Below are positions 7,184-34,447 of a stretch of DNA of 34,589 nucleotides, piece after piece. The notes under the pieces were generated by a model. That model did no database searches, was not told where the DNA came from, and saw nothing but the letters and a program-made list of their open reading frames with translations. The stretch is taken from assembly GCA_021777225.1 (NCBI GenBank), contig JAJYDQ010000042.1:1-34589 (forward strand). The letters are read 5' to 3'. This DNA comes from Deltaproteobacteria bacterium. GTDB taxonomy: Bacteria > Desulfobacterota > Desulfomonilia > Desulfomonilales > Desulfomonilaceae. Each line of letters begins with the position of its first letter. Within the stretch, counting starts at the first letter, position 1. A program made the translations under genes and the position numbers.

Positions 7184-7205
7184 TGCAGGGACCTTCCTAA
7201 TAATT

Positions 7206-7508
7206 TCATGCCAGGAGATGGGACTCGGCGGCGTGGCCTTTTTCCAGCGCGTCCAGGATCTCATCTACGACTTCCTCGCTGATAACCTCACGGTACCAAT
7301 ATCCCTGAGGATAGATGATCATCACCGGTCCATCCTCACAAAGTTTTAAACAACCCGTGCTTGAAACCATTGCGTTCAAGCCACGATCGGCCAGTTCTTC
7401 CTCGAGATACGGGATAAGCCGGAGAGATTCTTTTTTGATACATTTACCTTTGGCTTCCGTGCCTCTAAAACTCGCGCAAACGAAAATATGATAATCCGGT
7501 TTGTTCAT
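7206..7508 (-). CDS. Nif-associated thioredoxin-like [2Fe-2S] ferredoxin
   Basis: This is a 100-residue protein of the thioredoxin-fold 2Fe-2S ferredoxin family, related to the Clostridium pasteurianum 2Fe ferredoxin. Four cysteines are arranged as the family expects: C11, C23, C53 and C57, in HIFVCAS, GKC and STGCLKLCEDGPVMIIYP. Similar genes occur next to nif genes in many anaerobes and may donate electrons to, or interact with, the MoFe protein or its assembly machinery. That role is inferred from context. It lies between nifK (13 bp) and nifE (22 bp) in the same orientation, so it is cotranscribed. Confidence 0.88.
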   Translation of the reverse strand: MNKPDYHIFVCASFRGTEAKGKCIKKESLRLIPYLEEELADRGLNAMVSSTGCLKLCEDGPVMIIYPQGYWYREVISEEVVDEILDALEKGHAAESHLLA

Positions 7509-7521
7509 GTATCGTCTCCTC

Positions 7522-10574: not shown

Positions 10575-10599
10575 TTCTTTCTCCTGGGAGAGACCGGGT

Positions 10600-10980
10600 T
10601 TATATTTCATCGAGGACTTTGTCGCCCCCTTCGCCTGTGCGGACACTTATGGAACTGGAGATCGGCATTACGAATATTTTACCATCGCCGGATTTACCGG
10701 TTTGGTTGACTTTGATGATAGTTGTAACCGCCTTTTTCTTGAGCTTCTCCGGGACGACAGTGAACAGCAGCCTCTTGGGAATCAGGCGTTGACTGTGACC
10801 GAGTTGAGCTATTGCTTCTTCGTAACCTTTTTCAGCGCCTTCAAGTAAGCTGTAGTCAACCAGACCCTTGCCTCTGCCCAGGACGTCCTTGGCGGTCATA
10901 GACGGTATGCCGGCGTCGGAAAGCGCTTTCTTTGTTTTGTTCATCATGTTCATGCGGATGATGGCCATAATTGCTTTCAT
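10600..10980 (-). CDS. nifI2: Nitrogenase-regulating PII-like protein NifI2
   Basis: This is a 126-residue PII-family protein. NifI2 acts with NifI1 to inhibit nitrogenase by binding NifDK when 2-oxoglutarate is low (ammonium switch-off in methanogens and other anaerobes). Family features are the N-terminal MKAIMAIIRMNMMNKTKKAL strand-helix, AKDVLGRGKG, a long T-loop region (VDYSLLEGAEKGYEEAIAQLGHSQRLIPKR), LLFTVVPEKLKKKAV and TGKSGDGKIFVMPI. It lacks the GlnB uridylylated-Tyr motif context. The start codon overlaps the stop of nifI1 (ATGA at 10977-10980), so translation is coupled. nifD follows 25 bp after its stop. Confidence 0.95.
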   Translation of the reverse strand: MKAIMAIIRMNMMNKTKKALSDAGIPSMTAKDVLGRGKGLVDYSLLEGAEKGYEEAIAQLGHSQRLIPKRLLFTVVPEKLKKKAVTTIIKVNQTGKSGDGKIFVMPISSSISVRTGEGGDKVLDEI

Positions 10981-15331: not shown

Positions 15332-16019
15332 ATTTGTCCTGATTTGACACACGTCCAAATTAGAATAGGGGATCTGACGAATTAGCGATGTGTCATTTTG
15401 ACCGTCAGGGAAAAATCTTTTACCGAGGAAGTAACCATTGAAAGGATATGATGGCGCTAATCACATAGAAGTCCTGAGAAGTTTTCTGGAGATCCCGTTG
15501 GGAAGCGCTGATGGCGTTTTCAATCGCTTCCTGGAAATCCCCGGAGCAATTTATCGTGGTGAAGGTCTGGAAAGGTTCCTGTATGTCAGAGGTTCCAGAA
15601 GCAACAAGGTATTGCTCGTGGCACATGCGGACACCTATTGGGATCATGAGTACGGATACGATACCGCACCAACACACACAATCAAGATTGAAGATGGCAA
15701 TATTACAGCCGTCAATGAAGAATTCGGGCTCGGCGCTGATGATAGAGCTGGATGCGCCATGCTCTGGCTACTCAAAGATTTGGGACATTCCCTGCTTGTT
15801 ACCAATGGTGAGGAAGATGGCCAAAAAGGAGCTGCTTGGTTGATGAGTCATAACAAGGACATCGCTCACGAGATCAACCACGACCACCAGTTTGTCATTC
15901 AATTTGACAGGCGCAATGGCCGGGATTTCAAGTGTTACGACGTGGGCACGGACGAACATGGAAACCAGGAACATTTAAATATCGCAGAATGGGAGCACAC
16001 ACTAAATTTGTGCTGTAGA
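15332..16019 (+). repeat. Duplication unit, left copy (peptidase gene plus upstream 100 bp)
   Basis: This region matches 17951-18757. The match begins in the intergenic DNA (TTGTCCTGATTTGACAC against TGTGTCCCCATTTGACAC), runs through a near-identical leader (TTTTGACCGTCAGGGAAAAA) and most of the peptidase gene. The left copy lacks 123 bp present in the right copy. Confidence 0.85.
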
Positions 16020-16073
16020 TGGATGGCTAAAAAAGAATTACCCAGATTCAAAATGAATCGATCTACTCCATGA
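15438..16073 (+). CDS. M20/M28-like metallo-exopeptidase, copy 1, with internal deletion
   Basis: This is a 211-residue protein, TTG start with GAGGAAG upstream. The first 171 residues align without gaps to the intact-looking copy at 18050 and include the zinc-peptidase motifs: VAHADT (H63, D65), GLGADDRAG (D101), NGEE (E125, E126) and an Asp near 157. After CYDVGT, 41 residues of the other copy (its 172-212) are missing in frame, then alignment resumes at DEHGNQEHLNIAEWEHTL, keeping the histidine that should be a metal ligand. The last 12 residues diverge. The lost segment probably includes part of the core or lid, so activity is doubtful. Substrate is unknown. Confidence 0.6.
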   Translation: MKGYDGANHIEVLRSFLEIPLGSADGVFNRFLEIPGAIYRGEGLERFLYVRGSRSNKVLLVAHADTYWDHEYGYDTAPTHTIKIEDGNITAVNEEFGLGADDRAGCAMLWLLKDLGHSLLVTNGEEDGQKGAAWLMSHNKDIAHEINHDHQFVIQFDRRNGRDFKCYDVGTDEHGNQEHLNIAEWEHTLNLCCRWMAKKELPRFKMNRSTP

Positions 16074-17950: not shown

Positions 17951-18757
17951 ATGTGTCCCCATTTGACACGCGTCCGAATTAGAATAGGGAATATGACGAT
18001 GGCGTCATTTTGACCGTCAGGGAAAAATCTTTTGCCGAGGAGATAACTATTGAAAGGATATGAAAAAACTAATCATATTGAAATCCTGAGAAGTTTTCTC
18101 GAGATCCCGCTGGGAAGCGCTGATGGCGTGTTCGAACGCTTTCTGGAAATTCCCGGTGCAATTTATCGTGGTGAAGGTCTGGAAAGATTTCTATACGTTC
18201 GAGGTTCCAGAAGCAACAAAGTCTTACTCGTGGCTCATGCTGACACTGTTTGGGACCGTGAGTACGGATCCGATCCTAGCCCAACAAATGAAATAAGAAT
18301 CGAAAATGGCGAAATCAGGGCTGTCAATGATGAATTTGGGCTCGGCGCTGATGACAGGGCCGGGTGCGCCATGCTCTGGCTACTTAAAGATTTGGGACAT
18401 TCCCTGCTTGTTACAAACGGCGAGGAACACGGCCAGACAGGCTCTTCCTGGTTGATGGATCATAACAAGGATATCGCTGACGAGATTAATCAGGACAATC
18501 AGTTTGTAGTTCAACTTGATCGTTGTGGAGGAACTGACTTCAACTGTTACAAGGTGGGAACTGGCAAGTTCAAAGCCTACATAAAAGCTGTCACAAATTA
18601 TTTTGACGCTGGTGCGAAAAGGTCGACCGACATCTCAGAACTCTGCAGAGATATTACCGGTGTTAATCTCAGCATTGGCTATTATAACGAACATCATGAA
18701 AATGAATACTTAAAGATCGCAGAATGGGATCATACACTTAAAGTAGCTAAAGAGTGG
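17951..18757 (+). repeat. Duplication unit, right copy (peptidase gene plus upstream 100 bp)
   Basis: This is the right-hand partner of 15332-16019, collinear except for the 123 bp missing in the left copy. Upstream leader and coding sequence are both conserved, so DNA rather than only protein has been duplicated. Confidence 0.85.
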
Positions 18758-18826
18758 CTTTCAGAGCCAAATTTGGAGAGATTTGCTTTGCCGTTTGGAG
18801 AAGAGACAACTTCTCCACAAATCTAG
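18050..18826 (+). CDS. M20/M28-like metallo-exopeptidase, copy 2
   Basis: This is a 258-residue protein, TTG start with GAGGAGA upstream. Zinc-peptidase motifs are in order: VAHADTVWD (H63, D65), FGLGADDRAGCAML (D101), VTNGEEHGQTGSSWL (E125/E126), VVQLDR (D157) and YYNEHHENEYL (H215/H216 as final ligand). This layout fits the M20/M28/M42 clan of cocatalytic dizinc aminopeptidases or carboxypeptidases. No signal peptide is present, so it is cytoplasmic. It is not obviously in an operon. The close copy at 15438 is probably its degraded duplicate. The physiological substrate cannot be told. Confidence 0.75.
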   Translation: MKGYEKTNHIEILRSFLEIPLGSADGVFERFLEIPGAIYRGEGLERFLYVRGSRSNKVLLVAHADTVWDREYGSDPSPTNEIRIENGEIRAVNDEFGLGADDRAGCAMLWLLKDLGHSLLVTNGEEHGQTGSSWLMDHNKDIADEINQDNQFVVQLDRCGGTDFNCYKVGTGKFKAYIKAVTNYFDAGAKRSTDISELCRDITGVNLSIGYYNEHHENEYLKIAEWDHTLKVAKEWLSEPNLERFALPFGEETTSPQI

Positions 18827-19091: not shown

Positions 19092-21989
19092 ATGCCTATA
19101 ACAGACTATCACGCCAAATATTACGCTCTCGAATTGAGTCGCGCGGGAGGAAAAGGGGTAAATCGACTGGGCCGTGCCTTATTTGACGCCTGTGTGGATT
19201 TGAACCCTCATCAGATCGAAGCAGCCCTTTTTGCCCTGCGCTCTCCAATTTCGAAGGGCGTCCTTCTTGCTGATGAAGTTGGTCTGGGAAAAACTATCGA
19301 GGCTGGTTTGGTTCTGTGTCAATACTGGGCCGAACGCCGCCGCAGCCTTCTTGTAATAATTCCAGCGTCCCTTCGTAAACAGTGGGCCATGGAGCTTTCT
19401 GAGAAATTTAACCTGCCATCAATTGTGCTTGACGCCAAAATATACACCGATCAGAAGACAAACGGGACCCCAAACCCATTTAGAGATGACAAAATAATCA
19501 TCTGTTCCATGCATTACGCCGCAAGCAAAAGCGAAGAGATCAGGGAAATTCCATGGGATCTTGTGCTTATAGATGAAGCCCACAAACTCAGGAACGCTTA
19601 TCGTCAAAGCAACAGAATTGGGCAGGCGATTCGTTGGGCGATAGCAGACCGTAAGAAAATCCTGTTAACGGGAACACCTCTCCAAAACTCACTCCTGGAA
19701 CTTTACGGCCTCTCTACGATCATCGATGATCGTCTTTTCGGAGATCCAGCTTCATTTCGTTCACGATATTTGAATTACGGTGGTGACCTTTCGGGGTTAC
19801 GTGATCGGCTGAAGAATTTCTGCTGGCGGACACTACGCAGCCAAGTTGTTGAGTTTGTGCGTTACACCGAACGAAGACTCATCACCCGTCCCTTTAAGCC
19901 TAATGAACAAGAGCAGAAATTATATGAAGCAATTTCCTCCTATTTACAGAGACAAGGGACTTATGCGTTGCCAAGCGGTCAAAAGCATCTCCTGATACTT
20001 CTGGTGCGAAAGGTTCTCGCGTCTTCCCCCTACGCTGTCGCAGGGACACTTGGAATATTGAGGGATCGCTTAATTAGACTGCGCCAGGAGGCCATAAAAA
20101 ATTCCAATGACGCGGATCTATTACTAACAGAGGAGGGAACAGAGGGAGATTTACTTGCTGAGTTATTTCAGGATGAAGAGGATGGTCTGGTGGAACTAGA
20201 CATTGCCCCTGAGATTCCCCCAATTTTGGAAACCAACCCCACCATCGATTTGCAGAAGCTGGAAGCCGAAATCAAAGAGCTTAATGATTACATCCGCTGG
20301 GCCAGGATCATTGGCGTCGATACAAAGACAAAGGGCCTGCTCAAGGCGCTTGAAATCGGATTTGCTCAAATGGCGGCAATGGGCGCTGCAAAGAAAGCGG
20401 TGATTTTCACTGAGTCCAGACGCACCCAAGCCTGGCTAAAAGAATTCCTGGAAGGAAACGGGTATTACGGTGAAGTAGTAACTTTTAATGGAACAAACCA
20501 GGATGACGTTTCTGGACAAATATACAAAGACTGGCTTTTAGAAAATCGGGATTCTGGGAGAGTAACAGGTTCGAAGCAAATTGATCTACGTGCCGCTATA
20601 ATAGATCGCTTTAAATCACAGGCCAATATTCTTGTAGCCACGGAAGCCGGAGCGGAAGGGATTAACCTTCAGTTTTCCTCGTTGATAATTAATTTTGATC
20701 TCCCCTGGAATCCACAACGCATTGAGCAACGCATAGGGCGGTGCCATCGCTATGGTCAAAAACATGACGTAGTGGTTATCAACTTTTTAAATGAGCGAAA
20801 CGAAGCAGACCGGAGGGTCTACGAGTTGCTTGAACAGAAATTCAACCTGTTCACAGGTGTTTTTGGCGCATCGGATGACGTACTGGGTTCAATAGAATCG
20901 GGTGTTGGTTTTGAACGCCGTGTCCTCGAAATTTACCAGAAATGCCGCACGGAACAAGAGATAAAAGATGCTTTTGAGCGCCTCCAAGCTCAATTAGACG
21001 ATCAGATCCAGACGAAAATGAGAGACACTAGAAAACTTCTAATGGAGCATTTCGATGAGGATGTACATGAGCGTTTGAAAGTCAACATGTCTGGAGCTGT
21101 AGAAAAGCTCGACCGTATCGCTTATCTTTTTTGGAACATTACAAAACATGCCCTTATTGACCATGCTGAATTCAATGATACAGATCTAACTTTCAGCCTG
21201 AATAATTCACCGATATCAGAAGCCATAACAGGAAATTATCGTCTTGTTTCCAAAGATAGAACCAACATTATTGGCGAATATCTGTACCGGTTGAGTCATC
21301 CACTTGGAGAACATGTCATTGCCGAAGCCAGTTCCTACGCATGCCCCATGGCGGAGGTCATTTTTGACATCACCAGGCATCCAACACGGATTTCAATTAT
21401 AGAAAAGCTTAAAGATAGGTCCGGCTGGCTAAGCCTGCAAAAATTGTGTATTGATTCCTTCCAAAGTGAGGAGTTCCTACTATTTTCCGCTGTAGATGAT
21501 CGGGGGAAAAACATAGATCAGGAAACGTGCGAGAAGCTTTTCAATTGTATGGGAGGCGTTGTTAGCTCGAATCCAATGCCTGGGAAAATTGAGGCTCGTC
21601 TGTTGGCGGATTGCGAAAGGCATACTCAAGCGACCATCTCTAAAAATCTCGAAGAGAATAATAGATACTTTAATGAAGCGCGTGATCAACTCGACAAATG
21701 GGCTGAAGATATGGAAATGGCGATTCAGAAAGACCTGGACGACACCAAGAAACAAATCCGTGATCTTCAACGTAAGTCCAGGCAAGCCCCAACAGTCGAA
21801 GAGCAGCACAAACTGCAAAATGACATGGCAAACCTCGAACGTAAAAAGCGTTCATTGCGTGAGAAAATTTTCGACATGGAAGACGAAATAGCCCTAAAAC
21901 GGGATCGTCTTGTGGAAGCTCTAGAAAAGCGCATGCAACAAAAAACAACTATCGTTCCAGTTTTTACAATAAGGTGGAGAGTCGTTTAG
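19092..21989 (+). CDS. SNF2-family DEAD/DEAH helicase (DrmD-like)
   Basis: This is a 965-residue superfamily 2 helicase or translocase. Motif I is DEVGLGKT (61-68), motif Ia VIIPASLRKQW, motif II DEAH (161-164) in LVLIDEAHKLRN, and motif III LLTGTPLQNSLLELYGL. The second RecA lobe has AVIFTESRRTQAWL, VATEAGAEGINLQFSSL and motif VI RIEQRIGRCHRYGQ. Residues about 825-950 form a long charged coiled coil. Class 1 DISARM has an SNF2 helicase (DrmD) beside an adenine methylase, as here, so a role in phage DNA recognition is likely but inferred. It is the first gene of the operon, with 15 bp to the methyltransferase. Confidence 0.9.
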   Translation: MPITDYHAKYYALELSRAGGKGVNRLGRALFDACVDLNPHQIEAALFALRSPISKGVLLADEVGLGKTIEAGLVLCQYWAERRRSLLVIIPASLRKQWAMELSEKFNLPSIVLDAKIYTDQKTNGTPNPFRDDKIIICSMHYAASKSEEIREIPWDLVLIDEAHKLRNAYRQSNRIGQAIRWAIADRKKILLTGTPLQNSLLELYGLSTIIDDRLFGDPASFRSRYLNYGGDLSGLRDRLKNFCWRTLRSQVVEFVRYTERRLITRPFKPNEQEQKLYEAISSYLQRQGTYALPSGQKHLLILLVRKVLASSPYAVAGTLGILRDRLIRLRQEAIKNSNDADLLLTEEGTEGDLLAELFQDEEDGLVELDIAPEIPPILETNPTIDLQKLEAEIKELNDYIRWARIIGVDTKTKGLLKALEIGFAQMAAMGAAKKAVIFTESRRTQAWLKEFLEGNGYYGEVVTFNGTNQDDVSGQIYKDWLLENRDSGRVTGSKQIDLRAAIIDRFKSQANILVATEAGAEGINLQFSSLIINFDLPWNPQRIEQRIGRCHRYGQKHDVVVINFLNERNEADRRVYELLEQKFNLFTGVFGASDDVLGSIESGVGFERRVLEIYQKCRTEQEIKDAFERLQAQLDDQIQTKMRDTRKLLMEHFDEDVHERLKVNMSGAVEKLDRIAYLFWNITKHALIDHAEFNDTDLTFSLNNSPISEAITGNYRLVSKDRTNIIGEYLYRLSHPLGEHVIAEASSYACPMAEVIFDITRHPTRISIIEKLKDRSGWLSLQKLCIDSFQSEEFLLFSAVDDRGKNIDQETCEKLFNCMGGVVSSNPMPGKIEARLLADCERHTQATISKNLEENNRYFNEARDQLDKWAEDMEMAIQKDLDDTKKQIRDLQRKSRQAPTVEEQHKLQNDMANLERKKRSLREKIFDMEDEIALKRDRLVEALEKRMQQKTTIVPVFTIRWRVV

Positions 21990-22004: not shown

Positions 22005-25000
22005 ATGCCGACAGCGGAACAACTTCGCGATCATTTAATGAAAAAACTCAAAGAATTATTTCAACTGGACCAGCCGGATCTGGATTTTGGTTTTTACCGG
22101 ATCATGCACGCCAAGTCTAAACAAGTCTCCGAGTTTATAGAAAAAGATCTTCTGAAAATTGTAGAGAACGCTTTTGGGACAGCGGATGAAAGTCGTAAGG
22201 CGAAATTGCAAGCGGAATATGATGACGCTCTTCGCAAAGCAGAAGAATATGGGGCCCCAAATCCTGACGAAGCACCGGTAGCTAGGAAGGCGAAGGCAGC
22301 CCTGGATGCGCTCAAAGATTCTACCTCCGCCGAAGCAGACATATATGATCATCTGTACCGTTTTTTTGAACGCTATTATGATGATGGGGATTTTATATCA
22401 CGCCGTTACTATTCCCGTGAAACAACTGACAGAGCTGCGCCATTTGCAATCCCTTATAACGGCGAGGATGTCAAACTTCATTGGGCGAATGCGGATCAGT
22501 ATTATGTAAAGACATCCGAATATTTTAACAACTTTACCTTCGATTTACGGCAGGCCAAGGAGGCTATACTCCCTAAACTAAGCCTGGACTTCGGTAAAGA
22601 TGTAAATCCACTAAAGGCACATTTCCGCATTGTTGAAGCCACAGAGGGTGAACACGGGAATGTGAAAGCCGCTGATACAAACAAACGTTTTTTCATAATA
22701 CATGGTGAAAACCCAGTCGTGATTTCAGAAGGCGGGGAATTAATAATCAATTTCGAATATCGACCTGACCCTGAAAAGACCGGACAGGATGGAACCTGGC
22801 GCAATAGGCGTAACGCAGAGGCTGTAGAAACCGTTCTTTCCGAGTTGGAAGAATTGGTTAAAGACAACAAGAGCCTGGAAGAATATCTGCGACTGTTTAA
22901 AGTACCTGCGCCAACGGATTCCGATAAGAAACGACCGCTGTTAGCCAAGTATATATCACAGTACACAGCCCGCAACACCATGGACTACTTCATCCACAAA
23001 GACCTGGGCGGTTTTCTGCGTCGAGAGCTGGACTTCTACATTAAGAACGAAATCATGCGCCTTGATGACATAGAGGATGCTGAAATTCCAGCGGTAGAAA
23101 CGTATCTATCGAGAATCAAGGTCCTACGAAAAATCGCAACCAAGCTGATCGATTTTCTGGCGCAACTTGAAGACTTTCAGAAAAAACTGTGGCTTAAGAA
23201 GAAGTTCGTTGTCGAGACTAATTATTGTATGACCCTTGATAGAGTGCCAGAGGAACTGTACCCCGAAATAGCCTCCAATCAAGCCCAGCAAGATGAATGG
23301 GTTAAGCTTTTTTCGATCAACGAAATAATAGAAATACAAGGTAATCTTCTGGAAAGTGCTTTACCAGGCTATTCAAATCCTCTGACGACGGAGTTCCTTA
23401 AAGCGTATGACAAGTTGATGCTAGATACAAGATTCTTTAGTGAAGACTTCAATGCCCGGCTTCTCGGGTCGATTGACGATTTAGATAGCAAATGTGATGG
23501 TTTACTAATTAATTCCGAAAATCTCCAAGCAGCGATCTTTCTCGGTTGTCGCTACCACAAGCTTGTAGATGGTGTATATCTCGACCCACCGTACAACACT
23601 GACGCCTCGGAGATAATTTACAAGAATGGTTTTAAAAAGAGTTCCTGGGCATCACTTATGTTTGACAGACTTATTTATTCAAAGCTGCTTCAGAAGAATG
23701 AAAGCTGTATTTGCGTGACAATCGATGATTTTCAAAAGCACATTTTGAAGAACCAGCTAGATATAATCTATGGTGAAGACAATCATCTTGCGACTGCTGC
23801 AATAAGAAGTAACCCACAGGGTCGGTCTACCGTTCAAGGTTTCTCAATAAACCATGAATACGGGCTGTTTTATCGCGTGACTAATCTGGGACAGTCTGTT
23901 GGTCGATTAACCCGGTCTGAAAAACAAATTGGCCGTTACAACAAAATTGATGAACGTGGTCAGCGGTATTTGTGGGAAAACTTCAGAAAAACCGGCACTG
24001 ACTCGGCAAGACTAGACAGACCAAAACAATTTTACCCGATTGTAGTGGGAGAAGTCAGCTTGAGGGTTCCTAAAATGTCTTGGGATGACTCAAGTAATGG
24101 GTGGGTCATTGAAGAAGATATCGATGAAAAAATTGAGAAGATTGTTTTCCCTATTGATGAAGATAGAAACGAAAGGGTTTGGAAGTGGGGGCATGATCGA
24201 GTGCGTCAGTTCCCAAATCACCTTAAAGTCGAGGTTGAGAAAAACGGTAACGTACAAATCTACCGTCGAAATTATTTGAATACGCGAGGATCACTCCCTG
24301 GAACCTGGTGGGACAAGGGAAAATATGGAGCAGGCTCGCATGGCTCCAATCTATTAACAGCAATGTTTGGTAAGGCGCATGTCTTTTCATTTCCTAAATC
24401 CGTCTATGCAGTCGAAGATTGCATTCGTGTAATAACCAACAACAATGACAAGGCATTGATTCTTGATCTTTTTGCGGGATCAGGAACTACTGCGCAAGCT
24501 ACCATTAACCTCAACAGATCCGACCAAGGATTCCGAAAATACATTTTGTGTGAAATGGGGGGGCATTTTGACGAGATATTAAAACCCAGACTTGAAAAGG
24601 CTGTTTTTTCAGCAATATGGAATAGTGGAAAGCCGAGAACTTATGAAGACTATCTAATTTTCTTAGAAAAGAAAATTGAAGAAGCAAAAAGAGAGCTGGC
24701 TGAGTTGCTCGGTATTCAAGATGAAATGTCTTACGAGTTTCAACGGCAGTTCATCGAGGGAGAAATGAAACTGCTTGAACATCAGCTTCAAAATGTGGAG
24801 TGCCTCGGTGAAAATTATCAGAAAATGTTTCCGGGAATTAGCCATTGTTTTAAATACCTCCGCCTCGAATCTTATGAAGACACGCTCAATAATTTGGTTT
24901 TTGATGAGAACCTTATTCGCGAAAAGGCCATTACAACTAACCCATCCCTCAAAGAAGACTACATGCTCCACTATTTTCTCAATGTGGAGACAAATAGTAG

Positions 25001-25565
25001 CCAGTCCCTTCTGAACACTGACGATTTCGCTGACCCGCTGGCCAGTAAACTGAAGTTGAAAAAACCTGGCAGCGACGAATACACGGATCAGAACGTTGAT
25101 CTAATAGAGACTTTTAACTATTTGATCGGTCTGCGAGTAATTCATATAGGTTTGCCGCAAATTTTCAGCGCAAAATTCACACGTAATACAGATCCAGAGT
25201 TGCCAGAGGACCAGCATACCAAGTTGCTGATTGATGGAAAGATTAAACAAGATGAGGATGGCCCCTGGTGGTTCCGAAAGGTTGAGGGCTGGGTTCCTAA
25301 AGACTCATCCAATCCTAACAACGGCCAGAGAGAGAAGATACTTGTTGTCTGGCGCAAGTTGATTGGAGACATCGAGCAAGACAATCTCATGTTGGACGAA
25401 TGGTTTCAGAAAAACCGTATTTCAACGAGAGACTTTGAATTTGACACGATCTATGTGAATGGCAGTAATAACCTCCCAAACCTTCAACTTGAAGGCGATA
25501 CCTGGAAAGTCCGTCTCATTGAAGAAGAGTTTCACAAGAGAATGTGGGATGTAGAGGGGGCATGA
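22005..25565 (+). CDS. Mod-like N6-adenine DNA methyltransferase (beta class)
   Basis: This is a 1186-residue protein with AGGAG 7 bases before ATG. The catalytic motif IV DPPYNTD is at 527-533 and the SAM-binding FAGSGTT is at 823-829. This order (IV before I) is that of the beta class, which includes type III Mod subunits. The roughly 500-residue N-terminal region contains KLHWANADQYYVKTSEYF and TNYCMTLDRVPEELY, as in large Mod-like enzymes. The 290 residues between motifs IV and I probably hold target recognition. The C-terminus (865-1186) is a further unassigned domain. It would mark host DNA at a specific site. The target sequence cannot be read from the protein. Its stop overlaps the rhuM start by 4 bases. 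Confidence 0.92.
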   Translation: MPTAEQLRDHLMKKLKELFQLDQPDLDFGFYRIMHAKSKQVSEFIEKDLLKIVENAFGTADESRKAKLQAEYDDALRKAEEYGAPNPDEAPVARKAKAALDALKDSTSAEADIYDHLYRFFERYYDDGDFISRRYYSRETTDRAAPFAIPYNGEDVKLHWANADQYYVKTSEYFNNFTFDLRQAKEAILPKLSLDFGKDVNPLKAHFRIVEATEGEHGNVKAADTNKRFFIIHGENPVVISEGGELIINFEYRPDPEKTGQDGTWRNRRNAEAVETVLSELEELVKDNKSLEEYLRLFKVPAPTDSDKKRPLLAKYISQYTARNTMDYFIHKDLGGFLRRELDFYIKNEIMRLDDIEDAEIPAVETYLSRIKVLRKIATKLIDFLAQLEDFQKKLWLKKKFVVETNYCMTLDRVPEELYPEIASNQAQQDEWVKLFSINEIIEIQGNLLESALPGYSNPLTTEFLKAYDKLMLDTRFFSEDFNARLLGSIDDLDSKCDGLLINSENLQAAIFLGCRYHKLVDGVYLDPPYNTDASEIIYKNGFKKSSWASLMFDRLIYSKLLQKNESCICVTIDDFQKHILKNQLDIIYGEDNHLATAAIRSNPQGRSTVQGFSINHEYGLFYRVTNLGQSVGRLTRSEKQIGRYNKIDERGQRYLWENFRKTGTDSARLDRPKQFYPIVVGEVSLRVPKMSWDDSSNGWVIEEDIDEKIEKIVFPIDEDRNERVWKWGHDRVRQFPNHLKVEVEKNGNVQIYRRNYLNTRGSLPGTWWDKGKYGAGSHGSNLLTAMFGKAHVFSFPKSVYAVEDCIRVITNNNDKALILDLFAGSGTTAQATINLNRSDQGFRKYILCEMGGHFDEILKPRLEKAVFSAIWNSGKPRTYEDYLIFLEKKIEEAKRELAELLGIQDEMSYEFQRQFIEGEMKLLEHQLQNVECLGENYQKMFPGISHCFKYLRLESYEDTLNNLVFDENLIREKAITTNPSLKEDYMLHYFLNVETNSSQSLLNTDDFADPLASKLKLKKPGSDEYTDQNVDLIETFNYLIGLRVIHIGLPQIFSAKFTRNTDPELPEDQHTKLLIDGKIKQDEDGPWWFRKVEGWVPKDSSNPNNGQREKILVVWRKLIGDIEQDNLMLDEWFQKNRISTRDFEFDTIYVNGSNNLPNLQLEGDTWKVRLIEEEFHKRMWDVEGA

Positions 25566-26626
25566 CAATGCCCGAAAAATATCCGGATCTCCCCGTAGCA
25601 AGTGAATTCTTGCTGTATCAAACCGAAGACGGACAAACGCGCATTGAAGTCCGACTACAAAATGAAACAGTTTGGATGACCCAAATCGGGATGGCGGAAC
25701 TTTTTCAGACTTCAGTTCCAAACATCAATATTCATGTGAAAAACATTTACGAAGAAGGGGAACTTGCCCCTGGCGCAACTATTAAGGATTACTTAATAGT
25801 TCGAATGGAAGGCTCCAGACAGATCAAACGCAGCGTCAAGCATTATAACCTGGAAACCATCATCGCTGTTGGATACCGGGTAAAGTCCCATCGAGGCACA
25901 CAGTTTCGGAAATGGGCGACAGATCGTCTGAATGAATACCTAGTCAAGGGATTTACTATGGACGATGAGCGTCTAAAAGCGGGCGTGAATATTGGATCAG
26001 ATTACTTTGACGAACTATTGGAGCGGATACGAGACATCCGTTCCAGTGAGAAGCGCTTTTATCAGAAAATCAAGGACATCTATAGACTTGCCGTAGATTA
26101 CGACCCCAAGACCCAAGAAACATTGGAATTCTTCAAAATTGTCCAGAACAAGTTACATTTCGCTATTTCCGGGAAGACGGCAGCGGAACTCATATATGAG
26201 CGGGCTGATTCCACCAAGCCGAATATGGGGTTAACTGCATGGAAAGGATCCAAAGTTCGCAGGGGTGACGTGACGATTGCCAAAAATTATTTGAATTATG
26301 ACGAACTTCAGCAACTAAACCGAATCGTGGAAATGTATCTAAATTACGCTGAAGATCAGGCGAGGCGGCGAAAGCAGATATTTATGAGGGACTGGCGAGA
26401 GAAATTGAATGCTTTCTTGCAATTCAACGAGAGAGAAATTCTAGAAAATCCCGGGCAAGTGAATAAGGCCGTTGCTGATAAACTGGCGCTCGAAATGTAT
26501 GACATTTTCAATGCCAACCGTTTAAGTCTCGAAGTAGAGACGGAGATGCTGGCGGATGATCGGGAATTGAAGAAGCTTGAATCAGTTATTGAAACCAGAA
26601 AACAAAAAGGGCGTGACAATGGCTAA
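25562..26626 (+). CDS. RhuM-family protein
   Basis: This is a 354-residue protein from the ATG at 25562, which overlaps the methyltransferase stop (ATGA) and follows GAGGGGG. The N-terminal third is the RhuM signature: VWMTQIGMAELFQTSVPNIN, then IKRSVKHYNLETIIAVGYRV and FRKWATDRLNEYLVKGF. It resembles phage anti-repressor-type DNA-binding modules. The C-terminal part is helical and charged. The family was named for a Salmonella virulence-island gene and its biochemical role is not established. Placement inside a restriction-type operon with overlapping neighbours suggests a regulator or accessory subunit of that system. Confidence 0.88.
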   Translation: MTMPEKYPDLPVASEFLLYQTEDGQTRIEVRLQNETVWMTQIGMAELFQTSVPNINIHVKNIYEEGELAPGATIKDYLIVRMEGSRQIKRSVKHYNLETIIAVGYRVKSHRGTQFRKWATDRLNEYLVKGFTMDDERLKAGVNIGSDYFDELLERIRDIRSSEKRFYQKIKDIYRLAVDYDPKTQETLEFFKIVQNKLHFAISGKTAAELIYERADSTKPNMGLTAWKGSKVRRGDVTIAKNYLNYDELQQLNRIVEMYLNYAEDQARRRKQIFMRDWREKLNAFLQFNEREILENPGQVNKAVADKLALEMYDIFNANRLSLEVETEMLADDRELKKLESVIETRKQKGRDNG

Positions 26627-29600
26627 GAAGAAATCTAAAGGAGCAAAGCCGCACGCCTTTCGCAATAGGCTTGTCCTTAACCAGTGGTTGATGAGTCTTT
26701 TCGGCGTCGATCCACTTGACCAGCGTTATCAGGGTACCGCAAAACGTCCGTTTCATGATCTGATCGAGTCGATCAAATCCTCCAATCTGGAGGGGCTGGA
26801 TCACGACAATGTACACAAATTTTACCATGCGCTTGTAAACAGCGACATGTTTTGGAATGACATCAGCATACTTAGCAAGGAGGAGATTCTCGTTTATGAA
26901 GAGAACATTGTAAGACATACCCAAACCATTAATGAGAGGCGAGTAAGGCCGGTAGTCTGGAAGTATTTCCAATGGCTGAGCTTACTTTTTGTGGAAATTT
27001 ACCTGGATCGCTTCTTTGGTAACCGGGATATCCTCCGGAATGATCTAAATGGTTTTATAGAAAGATTCAACCGCCGCTGGCCGGATTATGACAATATTCC
27101 TCCATATGAAATAGATGATCTAAACAAGATTTGCCTGCAAAATGCGACTGGAAGCGGCAAGACGTTGCTGATGCATGTCAATTTACTTCAGTACAGGCAT
27201 TTCTCGAAAAAATATGGAAAAGATAAGGATCTTTCCCGGGTCATTCTGCTCACCCCCAATGAACGACTGAGCGAGCAGCATGTTACCGAGTTCAAGGAGA
27301 GCAATATATCAGCAGATCCATATCTGCAGACTCGAAGCGGACTATTTGGATGGGCCACGTTGCTTAATCATGTGGATGTTCTCGAAATCACCAAATTGGC
27401 TGACCAGGAAGGCCCAAACACAATCGCCACCAGGAGCCTGGGCGATCAAAACCTGTTGCTCGTGGATGAGGGGCATAGGGGTATGAGCGGCAAAGACGAG
27501 GGGGTTTGGTTTACACGCCGTTCAGATCTATGCGCCAGAGGCTTCAGTTTCGAGTATTCGGCAACCTTCGAACAGGCTGTAAAGGCAGCTAATAATCAAG
27601 ACTTCGAAAATAGTTACGCCAAGAGCATTTTATTCGATTACTCTTACCGATGGTTCTACGAGGATGGTTTTGGCAAGGACTATCAGATCATAAACCTACC
27701 CGAGTCTTTTGACGAGATTAAGTCTGTTTATCTGACGGCTTGCTTGCTCAAATACTACCAGCAGCTCCATATATATGAAAATGACAAAAAGTCTTCAAAT
27801 TTTAAGCCTTTTAACATAGAGAAGCCACTCTGGGTATTTGTCGGGAGCACCGTTTCCAAGGCCAAGGGTGGTTCGGATGACGAAAAAATAGTCGCCACTG
27901 ATGTTGCGCAGATAATTCAGTTTATTGCAGATTTTCTTGAAAACAAAGAGGCTTCCTGCCGCCGAATTCATACGATCCTTATTGGTAATGGTGAGGATAC
28001 AGGGCTCATTGATAGCAAAGGGAATGATATTTTTGCCGGAGCCTTTAACTATTTGACCAGGAACATGAATGCATGTGAGACGATAGAAACGCTATATCAC
28101 GATATCCTTGGACGTCTTTTTAACAATCGGGCTGGCGGACAACTGGTTCTCTCTCGGATCAAGGGTGAATCCGGCGAAATAGCCTTAAGAGTTGGCCAGG
28201 CTGAAACTCCTTTTGGTCTGATAAATGTTGGAGACGCCAAAGGGCTCTGTGATCATGTTGCGGATGTCGCCTCAACGAATGGTACCAAATTGTCCGTAGA
28301 AGATAGTGACTTTTCAGAAGCCATGTTCGCGTCGGTTAAGGATTCCAGCTCTCCTGTTAATCTTCTAATTGGCTCTAAAAAATTCGTAGAAGGTTGGGAT
28401 TGCTGGCGAGTGAGTGCTTTGGGGCTCATGCATGTCGGGCAAAGCGAAGGAGCCCAGATTATCCAGTTATTCGGACGAGGAGTTCGTCTGAAAGGATATG
28501 AGTGGAGCTTAAAACGCAGTGGACACATAAATGTTCCGGTAACGATACCGAGTTGTATTGAAGAACTGGAAACACTGAATGTATTTGGCATTGAAGCCAA
28601 CTTCATGGAGAAATTCAGGGAATTCCTCAAGGATGAAGGTTTGCCTGGTAACGAGCAAAGACAGACTTTTACTATTCCGCTAAATGTGACTTATGATTTT
28701 GGGAGTAGGCTCAAGATTCTTAGGCCCAAACGTAAGCTTGATGGGAAAGAATACGACTACAAAAAGGATGGGCCAGTCCCAACAATTGGCGATGTTCCTA
28801 AATATTTCTACCGCAACAAGGTGGTAACTGACTGGTACCCTCGCATTCAGGCTATTCAATCTCGCCAATCTAATCATACAACCATCAAGAATCAAGCTTG
28901 TCTAAGGGAGCAGCATTGCGTTTGGTTGGATTATGACGAATTGTTCTTTGATCTTGAGCGATTCAAAAGGGAGCGAAGCTGGTACAATCTGAACATAACA
29001 ACAGGAAGCATCAAAGCATTACTTTCTAACCCCAATTGGTACACCTTATACATACCTGAAAACACACTAAACCCAAAAGGATTTGAGGGCGTTAGATTAT
29101 TACAGCATGTTGCCAATGAACTTGTGCGACGATACTGCCAAAAATATTATAATTATTGCAAACGACAATATATTGAGCCACGCCTGGAACTTCGAGAACT
29201 CACTAGGACTGATGACAACATTCCTAAAGATGAATTCTATCAACTAATTGTTGATGGCGATGAAGCGCAGGTCATTCAAGGAATTCAGCAGATTAAGCAA
29301 GACCTGGCATCTAGCAAAGATGACCTTATACGGGTCGGCGATCTTAATGCCTGCAACTTCGGCAAACATCTGTTTCAGCCCCTTTTCCATGTCCGTCGGG
29401 GTGGGAAGATAACAATTCTACCTGTGGTTCTAAATGAAAGCGAATATCAGTTTGTCACGGATTTGAAAGACTGGTGCGATTCAAATAAGCATATAATTGA
29501 ATCGAAAAGGCTGGAGCTCTTCCTGCTCAGGAACATGAGTAGAGGCAAGGGGGTTGGCTTCTTCGAGGCCGGTGGTTTTCATCCCGATTTTATCCTATGG

Positions 29601-29888
29601 ATACTGGATGGGGACAAACAGTACGTAACCTTCATAGAACCCCACGGGCTTGTTTATGAGAGCATTGCAAATGAAAAGTTTCTTTTCTACCAGCGCATCA
29701 AGGATATAGAGAAACGCCTCAACGATCCGATCGTCATATTAAATTGCTTTATTCTATCATGGACTCAGTATCCTCGTTTACAGTGGGGAAAGAAAAGAGA
29801 AGAGCTGGAAGACCAGAATGTCCTTTTTATGACAGATGATCGGGACCACTACATAGAAAAACTGTTAGGGCGGATTATTGATTTTTAG
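26619..29888 (+). CDS. Type III Res-like DEAD/DEAH helicase with C-terminal PD-(D/E)xK-like domain
   Basis: The protein has 1089 residues from the ATG at 26619, overlapping the RhuM stop by 8 bases; an upstream TTG at 26577 is unlikely. Walker A is ATGSGKT (176-182) in CLQNATGSGKTLLMHVN, and motif II is DEGH (283-286), followed by FSFEYSATFEQ. The helicase C lobe has GSKKFVEGWDCWRVSALGLM and IIQLFGRGVRLKG. Near the end GFHPDFILW (PD at 989-990) and TFIEPHG (E at 1007) have the spacing of a PD-(D/E)xK nuclease, with His where Lys is usual. This fits a Res-type cleavage subunit working with the Mod-like methylase. Whether it cuts DNA is not shown. Confidence 0.87.
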   Translation: MAKKKSKGAKPHAFRNRLVLNQWLMSLFGVDPLDQRYQGTAKRPFHDLIESIKSSNLEGLDHDNVHKFYHALVNSDMFWNDISILSKEEILVYEENIVRHTQTINERRVRPVVWKYFQWLSLLFVEIYLDRFFGNRDILRNDLNGFIERFNRRWPDYDNIPPYEIDDLNKICLQNATGSGKTLLMHVNLLQYRHFSKKYGKDKDLSRVILLTPNERLSEQHVTEFKESNISADPYLQTRSGLFGWATLLNHVDVLEITKLADQEGPNTIATRSLGDQNLLLVDEGHRGMSGKDEGVWFTRRSDLCARGFSFEYSATFEQAVKAANNQDFENSYAKSILFDYSYRWFYEDGFGKDYQIINLPESFDEIKSVYLTACLLKYYQQLHIYENDKKSSNFKPFNIEKPLWVFVGSTVSKAKGGSDDEKIVATDVAQIIQFIADFLENKEASCRRIHTILIGNGEDTGLIDSKGNDIFAGAFNYLTRNMNACETIETLYHDILGRLFNNRAGGQLVLSRIKGESGEIALRVGQAETPFGLINVGDAKGLCDHVADVASTNGTKLSVEDSDFSEAMFASVKDSSSPVNLLIGSKKFVEGWDCWRVSALGLMHVGQSEGAQIIQLFGRGVRLKGYEWSLKRSGHINVPVTIPSCIEELETLNVFGIEANFMEKFREFLKDEGLPGNEQRQTFTIPLNVTYDFGSRLKILRPKRKLDGKEYDYKKDGPVPTIGDVPKYFYRNKVVTDWYPRIQAIQSRQSNHTTIKNQACLREQHCVWLDYDELFFDLERFKRERSWYNLNITTGSIKALLSNPNWYTLYIPENTLNPKGFEGVRLLQHVANELVRRYCQKYYNYCKRQYIEPRLELRELTRTDDNIPKDEFYQLIVDGDEAQVIQGIQQIKQDLASSKDDLIRVGDLNACNFGKHLFQPLFHVRRGGKITILPVVLNESEYQFVTDLKDWCDSNKHIIESKRLELFLLRNMSRGKGVGFFEAGGFHPDFILWILDGDKQYVTFIEPHGLVYESIANEKFLFYQRIKDIEKRLNDPIVILNCFILSWTQYPRLQWGKKREELEDQNVLFMTDDRDHYIEKLLGRIIDF

Positions 29889-30042: not shown

Positions 30043-30954
30043 ATGGAGCGAACGCCAAAATATTATCTTGCAGTTTGTTACAGTGAAATCAAAACGGATT
30101 CTGAAGGTTCAGAAGAAACTGGTCAGGTTATCAATGCGATTAGAGAATTATCGACCAATGAACTCCGAAACTTTCGACGCTACGTGAAGAAGATAGTCGA
30201 ATACAGTCAAAACAGACATCTGTCCAAGGGCTTGCTCCTAAATTATCACGATTTTCAAGATGCTTGCGAAGAATATTTAAAAAATTATCATGAGACCCAA
30301 GTAATAGATTGGGGCGTGGTGGAACAAATGTCTATGAATCTGGGAAGGCTTTTCCTCAACACTTTAAATTTGTTCAGATGTTTTTTGGACCACACAGGAA
30401 CTACCCTGAAGAGAACATTTAGAAAGAATCCTAGCACAGTTGGAAAATGGGAAGCGGCTACCCATAGGTGTTATGACGAATCTTTTGCGTATCGTTTCAT
30501 GTATCAACTGAGGAATTACGGCCAGCACGTTGGCATGCCGCCACTGAATTTAGAAATATCTTCTGAAGGAGCCGAACCCTTCAACGATAAAGATTCCATA
30601 ATTTCACATTTTCATGTCGGTCTTCAGACTCAGCCCCTCCTAAAAGACAAGAAAATTTTCAAAAAGCTGGCAGACGATATCAACTCATACGGAAAAGTTA
30701 TCGACTTGATACCGTTATTAGATGAATGGTTCAAGTATGTGAGTGACCTTTTTAAGACAAGAGGGGAAATTGAAATCCGTTCAGCAAGGAACGCAGCTAA
30801 CAAAATAGTCAGTCTGAGAAATGAAATATCTGCGCCAGATCAGGCCGCAATGTGTATTCTCAAGATACCTAATGATCATGGAGAAGATCAATTATCTCCG
30901 ACAATGGAATGGTTCCCAGAACGGGAGGCTGAAGCGATCCTGAAACAATTATGA
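30043..30954 (+). CDS. Hypothetical protein with HEPN-like R-x4-H signature
   Basis: This is a 303-residue protein from the ATG at 30043 (MERTPKYYLAVCYSE), with AAGG close upstream. An earlier in-frame ATG at 29932 would add 37 residues and leave a 43-bp gap to the helicase gene, but has no ribosome-binding site. It is mostly helical and charged. R157-NYGQ-H162 in MYQLRNYGQHVGMPP matches the R-x4-6-H motif of HEPN ribonucleases, with the usual polar residue after Arg. Around it are helices such as GRLFLNTLNLFRCFLDHTG. I do not recognise a named family. The HEPN idea rests on one short motif and the defence context. It follows the Res-like gene in the same direction. Confidence 0.65.
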   Translation: MERTPKYYLAVCYSEIKTDSEGSEETGQVINAIRELSTNELRNFRRYVKKIVEYSQNRHLSKGLLLNYHDFQDACEEYLKNYHETQVIDWGVVEQMSMNLGRLFLNTLNLFRCFLDHTGTTLKRTFRKNPSTVGKWEAATHRCYDESFAYRFMYQLRNYGQHVGMPPLNLEISSEGAEPFNDKDSIISHFHVGLQTQPLLKDKKIFKKLADDINSYGKVIDLIPLLDEWFKYVSDLFKTRGEIEIRSARNAANKIVSLRNEISAPDQAAMCILKIPNDHGEDQLSPTMEWFPEREAEAILKQL

Positions 30955-31095
30955 GGTTAACTGTAGCCAATTAATCTAAGTTATTTAAAGGAGTTGAAGA
31001 CTTAAATGTATTTCTTGTTTGAATCAAGTTAATTTCTTGAACTCAGAGAACTGATTTTTTCTCAATGATATACGGCAAACGCGGGGTGGCACCAA
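30955..31095. other. Spacer before the PIN-domain gene
   Basis: This 141-bp gap is the largest inside the cluster after the 154 bp before the HEPN-like gene. It contains AAGGAG at about 30988, without a start at the right distance, and no clear terminator. The PIN gene could therefore be in the same transcript or have its own promoter. Confidence 0.3.
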
Positions 31096-32556
31096 ATGAA
31101 GGTTTTCTTTCTTGATACAAACATATTTCTCCAATGCAAAGATGTAGACAAATTGCGCTGGAATGAGGTGGCTGGAAATGAGGATGAAATTTTGCTCTTG
31201 ATTCCAACGCCCGTTGAAAAGGAAATTAACAACCTTAAACAAGACGGGAATAGACGCCGCAGTAAACGAGCGAGGATTGCGAATTCCATGATGAGAGATA
31301 TTTTGAAAGCCAACGATGCGAAATTGATTCTCAAAAAATCTAAGCCCTTCGTTGAAATTTCATTTGTACCAACAGACATATTGAAAATAGCGCCACCCCA
31401 CATAGATACTTCTACATCAGATGACCGTATTGTGGCAGAAGCTGTTTCATATACAAATCTGCATCCGACAAGTAATGTCTTCATTCTAACCAATGACACT
31501 CTGTTGATGCGGACTGCCCAGCGAAACAAACTGCAATACGTGGAAATTCCTTCCGATTGGTTTTTAGATCCAGAACCAGATCCCAAGGAAAAGATAATCA
31601 AAGGATTAGAAGATCAGCTAAAGCAGCTCCAAAAGACGTTACCCTTGATCGATGTGACCATCTCCGACATCAACGGAGCGATCTTGAAACAGTCTGTTAC
31701 TATTGTAGTGAGAAACTTCAGGGAACTTGATGGCTATGAGATAGAAGAACTGATAATGGCAGCAAGAAACGAGCGTACGTTTCTTTCTAAATCTGAAATT
31801 GAGAAGAATGCCGAACTAGCTTATCAATTGGCTCCATCTCTTATGGGTTTCAACAAGTACTATGAACCTCCAAGTGATGCGGATATCCAAAACTACTTTG
31901 AAGAATGTGAAAAATGGGCTGGTGAACTCGAAGCATTTGTCAAAGAGCTTCCGGGCAGGATAAGTTCGATATCCAGAAATTTTCGAATGGTTGTCTCTAT
32001 TCGTAATTCTGGTTCAGTTCCAGCCGAAAACGTCGTGGTTGAGTTCAAGCTTCCCAATGGTCTTCTTCTAAGACCACCGTCTGATTCGTTCGATTTTGAC
32101 ATAGCTAGTCTTGTCCCAAAATGTCCGCAACCACCTGAAGGCCAATGGATCAGCCGCCCAGATCCAGTTGCTCACAGTCCTTACTTTTCTAAACTTGAAC
32201 CAACCTTTCCGAGGTTTGAGCCCTTACAAAATGCCACATCTGTAGTTCCTCTGGTAGTACCCGTAATACCGCATCGGCGAGACAGGCACTGTTTTTATCC
32301 GAAACAAAGTAAGCCTTCTGATTTCAGTCACCTATGGAAATTTGAGTGTGAGGAATTCCGTCACCAGGTTGACCCAGAACAGTTTGAAGTGATCATTAAT
32401 GTGCCGGACGCCTTCAGTAAAATAAATAGCGTTTTTGAATACCGGATCACTGCCAAAAATTTACCAAACCCTCACAAGAACTGTTTGAGACTGACTATCG
32501 AGTTCTTGAAAGGAGACACCCTAGCTGAAGTACGTAAGTTTTTGGGGCTATGTTAG
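31096..32556 (+). CDS. PIN-domain ribonuclease-like protein with large C-terminal extension
   Basis: This is a 486-residue protein. Residues 1-155 are a PIN domain with the acidic residues in place: D7 (FFLDTN), E41/E43 (PTPVEKEI), D109/D110 (TSDDRIVAEA) and D134 (ILTNDTLLM). These normally bind Mg2+ or Mn2+ for RNA cleavage. Residues about 165-195 may form a short coiled coil. Residues about 295-345 (FRMVVSIRNSGSVPAENVVV, EFKLPNGLL) look like an immunoglobulin-like beta domain, and the last 120 residues are also beta-rich. It is much longer than VapC-type toxins (about 130 residues), and no antitoxin gene is adjacent. Position suggests an RNA-targeting arm of the defence-like operon. Confidence 0.82.
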   Translation: MKVFFLDTNIFLQCKDVDKLRWNEVAGNEDEILLLIPTPVEKEINNLKQDGNRRRSKRARIANSMMRDILKANDAKLILKKSKPFVEISFVPTDILKIAPPHIDTSTSDDRIVAEAVSYTNLHPTSNVFILTNDTLLMRTAQRNKLQYVEIPSDWFLDPEPDPKEKIIKGLEDQLKQLQKTLPLIDVTISDINGAILKQSVTIVVRNFRELDGYEIEELIMAARNERTFLSKSEIEKNAELAYQLAPSLMGFNKYYEPPSDADIQNYFEECEKWAGELEAFVKELPGRISSISRNFRMVVSIRNSGSVPAENVVVEFKLPNGLLLRPPSDSFDFDIASLVPKCPQPPEGQWISRPDPVAHSPYFSKLEPTFPRFEPLQNATSVVPLVVPVIPHRRDRHCFYPKQSKPSDFSHLWKFECEEFRHQVDPEQFEVIINVPDAFSKINSVFEYRITAKNLPNPHKNCLRLTIEFLKGDTLAEVRKFLGLC

Positions 32557-32872
32557 TCTTTAAGCACCGTGAATCGTCCGGTTAGATGTGTATGTCTATT
32601 TAATAGGCCACCGTGACCGTTAGTCTCTTCGAACAGTGTTTACGGTGCGTTTTATGCCAATTTTGGGGCCGCCCGGCCAAATTGAATCAGGCGGCAGTCC
32701 CTTTCAGATGTTTGGTTTCAGAGCAGTGCCCGATTTGATCTACATTACCGCATCGTTTTAGAGTTTGGTCCTGCAGGGCCAGCGGAGCGAATGGTCAACG
32801 ACAATTACATCTGTTCAGTTGTCGGCGAGTAGATGTCCGTTAGGAAGGTCCTTAACTCGTTTGGAAGGGGGC
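32557..32872. other. Non-coding stretch before the transposase remnant
   Basis: There is no supported gene. It contains the possible terminator and an inverted CGACAA/TTGTCG pair near 32797-32823 just before the IS21-like frame. That could be part of a decayed insertion-sequence end, but true terminal repeats were not identified. Confidence 0.4.
32609..32647 (+). terminator. Possible terminator of the defence-like operon
   Basis: CACCGT (32609-32614) pairs with ACGGTG (32642-32647), followed by CGTTTTAT. The loop is long and the T-run short, so this is only a candidate, 53 bases after the PIN gene stop. Confidence 0.3.
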
Positions 32873-33082
32873 ATTGTTTTGCAGACGACTGACGCTCAGG
32901 TGAGGAAACTAATGAAGGAGATTCGCAAGGCAGGCAAAATTGGAGATTCAGCTTTACGATCCGGGATGAGCCGTAAGACAGCAACCAAGTATGTAAAGAT
33001 TGAGAAGCTACCGTCGGAACTGACGGAGCCAAGAACATGGCGGAGCTCTCTGAATCGCAGAGGGCCGCTGTCACGGAATTGA
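32873..33082 (+). pseudogene. IS21-family transposase (IstA-like) N-terminal remnant
   Basis: The frame reads IVLQTTDAQVRKLMKEIRKA, GKIGDSALRSGMSRKTATKY and VKIEKLPSELTEPRTWR, the N-terminal helix-turn-helix of IS21-type IstA transposases. Relatives start MVLQTT; here the first codon is ATT, with TTG two codons later. After RTWR (about 33042) similarity stops and the frame ends at 33082. The DDE catalytic domain and istB are absent. It is a dead fragment marking past insertion. Confidence 0.75.
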
Positions 33083-33121
33083 GGCCTTTCATCTATAGCG
33101 GACATAATCCTGCCTGTATGA

Positions 33122-33310
33122 TCAGGAAAGATCTTCCTTATTTCTGGACTTCTTGAGGAAGCCGGCAAGGTATTGAATCCTTTCTCGATAAGAAACTATC
33201 TGGTTTATAATCTCATCTCTGAGCCGAATGCGCTCCTTTGACGGTCCAAAATTGAAGGATGTAGTAAGGGCGTTAAATTCAATGCTTGGCGCCACTAAAC
33301 ATCTCTTACT
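33122..33310 (-). pseudogene. Unidentified C-terminal gene fragment
   Basis: This is a stop-to-stop frame of 62 codons with no ATG. It includes APSIEFNALTTSFNFGPSKE, then RIRLRDEIINQIVSYRERIQ and YLAGFLKKSRNKEDLS. The amphipathic, charged helix and codon pattern look like a real protein tail. I do not recognise the family. The fragment lies between other broken genes. Confidence 0.35.
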
Positions 33311-33367
33311 CTAGATTCACAGTCCCAAGCTCGCTAAAGAATTTTGGAATTATTGGAGCCGTTGCTT

Positions 33368-33532
33368 ATGGACCGATCAACAATACACTACTACAACAAA
33401 AACGCCGACAAGTTAGCCGAATTGTACGAAACCGCTGACATGTCGGAAATTCACGCCCTGCTTGTCCGGTTCTTATCCGAAAAGGCTAGGATCCTGGAGA
33501 TAGGGTGCGGGTCGGGACGCTGCTCCCACTAG
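33368..33532 (+). pseudogene. Truncated class I SAM-dependent methyltransferase
   Basis: The frame opens at ATG 33368 (GGAG upstream) and encodes MDRSTIHYYNKNADKLAELY through ARILEIGCGSGRCSH. ILEIGCGSGR is the SAM-binding motif I of Rossmann-type methyltransferases, found at the normal distance from the start. A TAG follows three residues later, leaving 54 of an expected 200 or more residues. No continuation was found downstream. Confidence 0.75.
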
Positions 33533-33814: not shown

Positions 33815-34447
33815 TTACCATTTCTTGGGTTTTGATATCGTCGTTCCGGGGATTAGATCTGGGAGTTGAGAAGTCTTTAAAATTGATTCTCTAATTCTTC
33901 TAGTGAATGTGGCATACTGATTGAGCTGTTTATTGTTGGTCTTGGCCTTGACCTGGGGATTTATGATGCCGATTATTTTGTTGTGGCGGACTTTGACGAG
34001 TCTAACAGCCTCGGCCAAATCACTATCATTTGAGATTATGACTCCACAGTCATAATTATCCAACCAGGCGTCATCAAGAAAATGAAGGGCTAGATTCACA
34101 TCAGAGCCCTTTTCTTCTGTAAATATTACATCCTCGGTGTACCGGGGTGGTTTAGGTTGGGCAAGAGGAGCCATTTTAGTGTGGCTGAGGAAATGTCCGT
34201 AAACGATTTCTATTTCAGGAATATATGCATTTAAAGCTCTTATGTAGGTTTGTTGTCTGATATGTTTTTGTGGATCATGTTGCGTAGGATGAACTCGGGC
34301 AGTGAAATACTTGATTCGCTGGATATCGTGACTTGGATTCAACAACCCTTTACACATAGCCATCAGATTCAGCCATTTGTAAGGAGTGTTTTTTACCGCT
34401 CCATAATAAAGATTGAACCCGTCAATATAGATATAGGTTCGTGACAA
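33815..34447 (-). CDS. NYN-domain (LabA/DUF88-type) nuclease-like protein
   Basis: This is a 210-residue protein of the PIN-like NYN fold, predicted to be a metal-dependent ribonuclease. The three acidic motifs are visible: YIYIDGFNLYYG (Asp near residue 9), EEKGSDVNLALHFLDDA (Asp about 115) and GVIISNDSDLAEAVRLV (Asp about 140-142). Translation probably starts at TTG (34445-34447), preceded by GGGGGT. The C-terminus is basic. It has a strong own promoter about 90 bp upstream and a structured leader. No partner gene is seen within the window. Confidence 0.88.
   Translation of the reverse strand: MSRTYIYIDGFNLYYGAVKNTPYKWLNLMAMCKGLLNPSHDIQRIKYFTARVHPTQHDPQKHIRQQTYIRALNAYIPEIEIVYGHFLSHTKMAPLAQPKPPRYTEDVIFTEEKGSDVNLALHFLDDAWLDNYDCGVIISNDSDLAEAVRLVKVRHNKIIGIINPQVKAKTNNKQLNQYATFTRRIRESILKTSQLPDLIPGTTISKPKKW

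Follow-up and report, generated by a model that had tools for sequence, protein, structure and literature searches.

Putative HEPN-type and PIN-domain ribonuclease genes downstream of a Snf2-type III restriction module belong to two separately occurring protein families

Two adjacent genes downstream of a type III restriction-like module in a Deltaproteobacteria bacterium (contig JAJYDQ010000042.1; the window is the whole 34,589-nucleotide stretch that was analysed) encode proteins of the HEPN and PIN types and, judging from their sequences, both are probably nucleases that act on RNA. We favour, with moderate confidence, the reading that they are independent single-gene anti-phage RNases, inserted serially behind a Snf2-type III module in a defence island, because relatives of each gene are found by themselves in phages, on plasmids and in chromosomes. 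For both, defence against phages is the most probable role. What had been described as a restriction-coupled suicide pair is thereby replaced by two testable, uncharacterised protein families. The laboratory strain B. subtilis NCIB 3610 carries a relative of one of them (phrog_30874) on its 84-kb plasmid, while members of the other lie in P2-type prophages of E. coli, within or close to established defence loci.

The upstream module, like the two genes behind it, is encoded on the forward strand and was recognised from profile matches. It begins with a Snf2 helicase (19092..21989) that is DrmD-like but falls under the DrmD (DISARM) cut-off, and continues with a type III Mod-like N6/N4 methyltransferase (22005..25565), a RhuM-family protein in a variable slot between Mod and Res (25568..26626; Pfam Virulence_RhuM, 2e-113), and a type III Res-like subunit (26622..29888; PADLOC REase_III, 5e-175), which is the final gene of the conserved module. 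These four genes either overlap or are separated by gaps of 15 nt or less. The HEPN gene (30043..30954; 303 aa) begins 154 nt after Res, or 43 nt if an alternative in-frame ATG at 29932 is used, and the PIN gene (31096..32556; 486 aa) lies a further 141 nt downstream. We favour the start at 30043, as relatives begin at the matching point and lend no support to the upstream ATG. Both reading frames were thus recovered with the coordinates and strand given in the preliminary description. Its placement of them at the end of a restriction operon holds in so far as they share a strand downstream of Res, with which they may be co-transcribed, but tight operon packing stops at Res. In addition, GC3 was 0.40-0.41 in the HEPN and PIN genes, 0.44-0.48 across Snf2-Mod-RhuM-Res and 0.52 in a minus-strand gene block, and this small difference is consistent with separate acquisition of the two genes, without proving it.

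Linkage to the restriction module was assessed at other Res loci and, conversely, at other loci of the two families. Res relatives were present in 22 of 395 genomes of the phylum, the window's own counted, and among the 14 other Res loci that span at least 1.5 kb past Res none carried a HEPN or PIN gene behind it; these include two at which Res is 72% and Snf2 74% identical to the window proteins. The genes following Res instead vary by locus (AAA_21; AAA_15 and then SIR2 and TIR genes; a HATPase protein; or nothing recognisable), and slot X between Mod and Res is filled by RhuM in the window, by Fic in two relatives and by an AAA_15 ATPase in a third (L033, L034, L035). Likewise, when every window protein and both family HMMs were run against 22 HEPN- or PIN-family loci outside the window, Snf2, Mod or Res was detected at none of the 11 HEPN-family and none of the 11 PIN-family loci, and the two families occurred together only in the window, although these counts are modest and some loci are short (L052 and L108 end at the gene), and L004, L005 and L053 are mutually near relatives. 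Conserved linkage of the HEPN and PIN genes to Res was therefore not observed.

It had been proposed that the pair constitutes an abortive, RNA-degrading arm of the restriction operon, a back-up for cases in which DNA restriction fails, and it was to be checked whether homologues always follow the Res-like gene. PrrC, which guards a type I enzyme, would be a parallel. The location of the HEPN gene on the Res strand, 154 (or 43) nt downstream, agrees with such an arm, linkage of HEPN genes to restriction systems is frequent, with PrrC and RloC as precedents (PMC3710099), and some PIN relatives adjoin other DNA-acting systems, as set out below for L007 and L008. Against this, homologues of both genes occur without the operon, and neither the Res loci nor the HEPN and PIN loci show the linkage, so that we now regard a back-up arm as unlikely. 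Functional layering within one island would nevertheless be possible without a conserved operon, because the links between HEPN genes and restriction and the PrrC/RloC precedents are real. Of the original interpretation, the assignment of both proteins to nucleases of the named kinds, the lack of antitoxins and a likely anti-phage role are retained, while membership of the pair in the restriction operon is not.

The HEPN-type protein was assigned from a conserved motif and a structural model. Its R157-NYGQ-H162 (30511..30528), previously read as a HEPN R-x4-H signature, is by itself no evidence, because R-x4-H arises in 42% of composition-matched shuffles of the 303-residue protein and R-x4-6-H in 81%. 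In an alignment of 10 family members that are 17-30% identical to the window protein and were drawn from plasmids, viral contigs, genome contigs and same-phylum genomes, R157, N158, Q161 and H162 were, however, invariant, which upholds the reading of this motif, present as numbered before; M1, N67, N106, R112, Y150 and L156 were invariant as well. Alignments of closer relatives were used for the genome-contig search with the HEPN family and for the viral search with the PIN family. The window protein matches phrog_30874 (PHROGs, function not recorded) at E 9e-14, and a pBS32-type protein does so at 3e-194. There was no Pfam HEPN match for the window protein or six relatives and no NCBIfam match for the window protein, and the AbiV and RiboL-PSP-HEPN proteins compared with it showed no detectable homology. 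PADLOC matches to Csx21 and Csm2 (E 3e-4 to 0.03, within residues 19-104) were attributed to coil similarity. As the family is unseen by Pfam and NCBIfam models and its PADLOC matches are weak and coil-like, it has probably been overlooked by defence annotation. One further candidate, a match at G113/L051, was dismissed as a family member since its alignment lacks the motif and it looks like a universal-stress protein. A search of a phage collection returned no match for the window HEPN protein or for the PIN relative from L060, and two viral scans (A9, A10) gave no matches.

Using AlphaFold2 with seven family members we obtained a model of the HEPN protein with a pLDDT of 86.9, in which residues 38-85, 90-125, 130-160 (with a break at 147) and 222-261 form a four-helix bundle, as had been anticipated, and R157-NYGQ-H162 ends the third helix and is followed by a beta hairpin. 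Within the HEPN superfamily, which includes AbiV and RiboL-PSP-HEPN, the published pattern is that helix 3 closes with an Rx4-6H motif in which R is followed by a polar residue, usually N, D or H (PMC3710099), and the window protein combines the conserved R-x4-6-H, with N after R, and a four-helix bundle in which the motif is correctly placed. It also shares the acidic residue of helix 2 (D or E at position 116), but differs from the superfamily in its long helices 1 and 2, an N-terminal beta hairpin, the second hairpin past the motif and the lack of Pfam recognition. Comparison with VIA-align placed the HEPN toxins 7ae6 (Z 6.5) and 8xeh (Z 6.4) among many unrelated helical bundles with similar Z; as unrelated bundles score equally, the match in fold is by itself unspecific, and a Foldseek search with the model against PDB and BFVD gave no match at E <= 0.001. 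The protein is thus probably of the HEPN type on the basis of its motif and predicted topology.

HEPN-family relatives were found as single genes in differing surroundings. In L055 and L056 the gene lies in contigs with Zot and Rep_trans genes, which are of filamentous phage type, in L052 it comes directly after a gpD (GPD-family) gene where a phage contig ends, in the viral contig L097 it sits between methylase genes, and in Martelella (L058) it is alone. The 84-kb plasmid of B. subtilis NCIB 3610 carries a family member, and on pBS32-type plasmids the gene adjoins terminase and portal genes; among the papers searched, none tied pBS32 to anti-phage function. In a Flavobacteriales genome (L057, 7147-8810) an AbiV gene and the HEPN-family gene share 4 nt, placing two HEPN-type proteins in one operon. 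The gene was also observed behind DUF4238, among other genes, in two unrelated genomes, namely at 6679-10876 of L003 (Rhizobium, with DUF2971) and at 7372-10550 of L050 (G029), which suggests a recurrent neighbourhood, and a DUF4238 protein is a validated single-gene defence system (PMC9122126).

Residues 5-147 of the 486-residue protein (31108..31536) match Pfam PIN_4 at E 4e-13, with 50.2 bits against a cut-off of 21.9, and alignment of nine family members, full-length relatives included, showed D7, E43, D109 and D134 to be invariant, so that the expected acidic residues are retained as first noted. K48, P183, N304, A310, P344 and P347 are also invariant in the nine members, and because several of these common residues fall in the long C-terminal part, this part belongs to the family. 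The Ig-like domain reported earlier is less secure, as residues 300-328 (31993..32079), which hold the invariant N304 and A310, do match the DUF11-type model TIGR01451 (E 8e-5), but this single match lies below threshold at 22.5 bits against a cut-off of 24. Structure prediction of the PIN protein without an alignment gave a pLDDT of 36 and was unusable. A typical VapC has about 130 aa, and at about 3.7 times this length the window protein is, as stated previously, more than three times its size. The two share the PIN fold family and the four acidic residues, but the window protein is PIN_4 (PhoH-type) rather than VapC-type, and unlike VapBC, in which a small PIN toxin adjoins an antitoxin gene, it has neither a VapB partner nor an antitoxin-like ORF beside it.

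The spacers around the HEPN gene were likewise searched for an antitoxin. Neither the 154-nt nor the 141-nt spacer holds a convincing ORF, an Rfam family at threshold, an unusually stable RNA fold (z 0.05 and 0.23) or a repeat array, in keeping with the earlier statement that neither gene has a recognisable antitoxin, and the adjoining repeat array or structured RNA of type III toxin-antitoxin and AbiF-like systems was not found.

Relatives of the PIN protein also occur in several kinds of mobile DNA. In the P2-like phage of L060 the gene is flanked by gpA and the portal gene, and the gpA-gpQ region of P2 is an established defence hotspot (PMC9122126; PMC9519451), while in an E. coli O111 prophage it lies between a gpD-type gene and ogr; relatives are present in 59 of 5426 E. 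coli genomes, O111 being the one whose setting was inspected. On the Blastomonas plasmid pBSY18_4 (L007, 4059-9341) a HamA-HamB (Hachiman-like) pair is followed by an overlapping PIN-family gene as the third gene, which may be an add-on component, and in L008 the gene is two genes beyond an HsdS/AlbA_2/HsdR cluster. Further plasmid hosts are Robbsia, Rhizobium, Acidovorax and Phyllobacterium. PMC13092281 cites Brenes and Laub 2025 for the validation of a prophage PIN domain, and the present family could already have been tested there.

A second tandem was observed at L063 (G114:C7, same phylum), in which a RiboL-PSP-HEPN gene (5847-6539) directly precedes a PIN-family gene (6728-8041) after a 188-nt gap, the HEPN protein being of a family unrelated to that in the window. 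This tandem, and the fact that the HEPN and PIN genes of the window adjoin on one strand, would fit a two-gene system of their own in which one protein restrains or activates the other. We consider such a system improbable, as the two families co-occur only in the window, where 141 nt separate them, and as one more HEPN-PIN tandem among 11 PIN loci may be due to chance. A still more tentative idea, which we think rather unlikely, is that HEPN and PIN genes recur together as a defence unit of two nucleases, pairing a variable HEPN RNase with a conserved PIN protein whose C-terminal half is sensor-like, and added behind different DNA-targeting systems; the tandems of the window and L063, whose HEPN families are unrelated, and the PIN gene that follows HamA-HamB would accord with this, but two tandems are too few to tell from chance in defence-rich DNA.

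Under the favoured reading of independent genes, the proteins may be self-restrained single-gene RNases that work by analogy with Tha or with antitoxin-less PIN systems. Tha, a HEPN protein of S. aureus prophages, is a phage-activated RNase triggered by phage tail proteins (PMC11087260) and resembles the window HEPN protein in its length of about 300 aa, its single gene and its RN-x3-H motif, both being prophage-borne in many cases. However, the HEPN part of Tha is C-terminal with the motif at 265-270, as against 157-162 with a beta hairpin after it in the window protein, and no antisense inhibitor gene, such as that of Tha, was identified beside the window gene. Furthermore, the family HMM matched Tha-1 at E 0.075 and hhalign gave a probability of 0.4%, values that do not indicate homology. 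In the predicted mechanism, two R-x4-H motifs would be brought together in a HEPN homodimer to form a composite, metal-independent endoRNase site, which the protein's own beta-rich and C-terminal parts would keep inactive. A phage product or an infection-induced change, for which Tha is the precedent, might then free the HEPN domain, and the freed enzyme would cut host and phage RNA and stop growth. The PIN protein would similarly act as a putative metal-dependent RNase, with a large C-terminal half that both holds it in check and detects the trigger; DS-3 (PMC13092281) is the precedent. Like the window protein, DS-3 and DS-5 are PIN proteins without an antitoxin, and their catalytic residues are required for defence (PMC13092281), but the PIN domain of DS-3 is split between the N- and C-terminus and DS-5 requires a second protein, whereas the window PIN is one N-terminal block, a distinction drawn from the descriptions of these systems, with either of which the window protein could still prove identical.

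The N-terminal PIN domain is related to widespread PhoH-type proteins, and about 70 PIN profile matches in the phylum, which align over the PIN part only and were read as PhoH-type proteins, were dismissed as family members. This relationship would suit a role in RNA processing or regulation rather than in defence, or else inactive leftovers of genes on mobile DNA. We judge this very unlikely, since each family is very rare in the phylum, where two of 395 genomes, one of them the window's own, were found to have it (HMM searches across 350 genomes gave the same result for HEPN and for full-length PIN), and since phage and plasmid carriage, invariant catalytic residues and neighbours such as AbiV, DUF4238 and HamA-HamB speak against it.

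Other features of the window were also recorded. A NYN-domain protein with a PIN-like fold is encoded on the opposite strand at 33815-34447, making it a third putative RNase near the HEPN and PIN genes, and between the PIN and NYN genes, at 32765-33400, there are frame-broken coding remnants, possibly of a transposase, with no Pfam match. Upstream of the Snf2 gene, a PepT/M28-like peptidase gene is present twice (15438-16073, apparently truncated, and 18050-18826), with the gene for a DUF4143 AAA protein between the copies. Positions 12626-14167 encode a sigma-54 activator, and a nitrogenase component 1-type oxidoreductase (8922-10646, reverse strand) lies inside the long minus-strand gene block.
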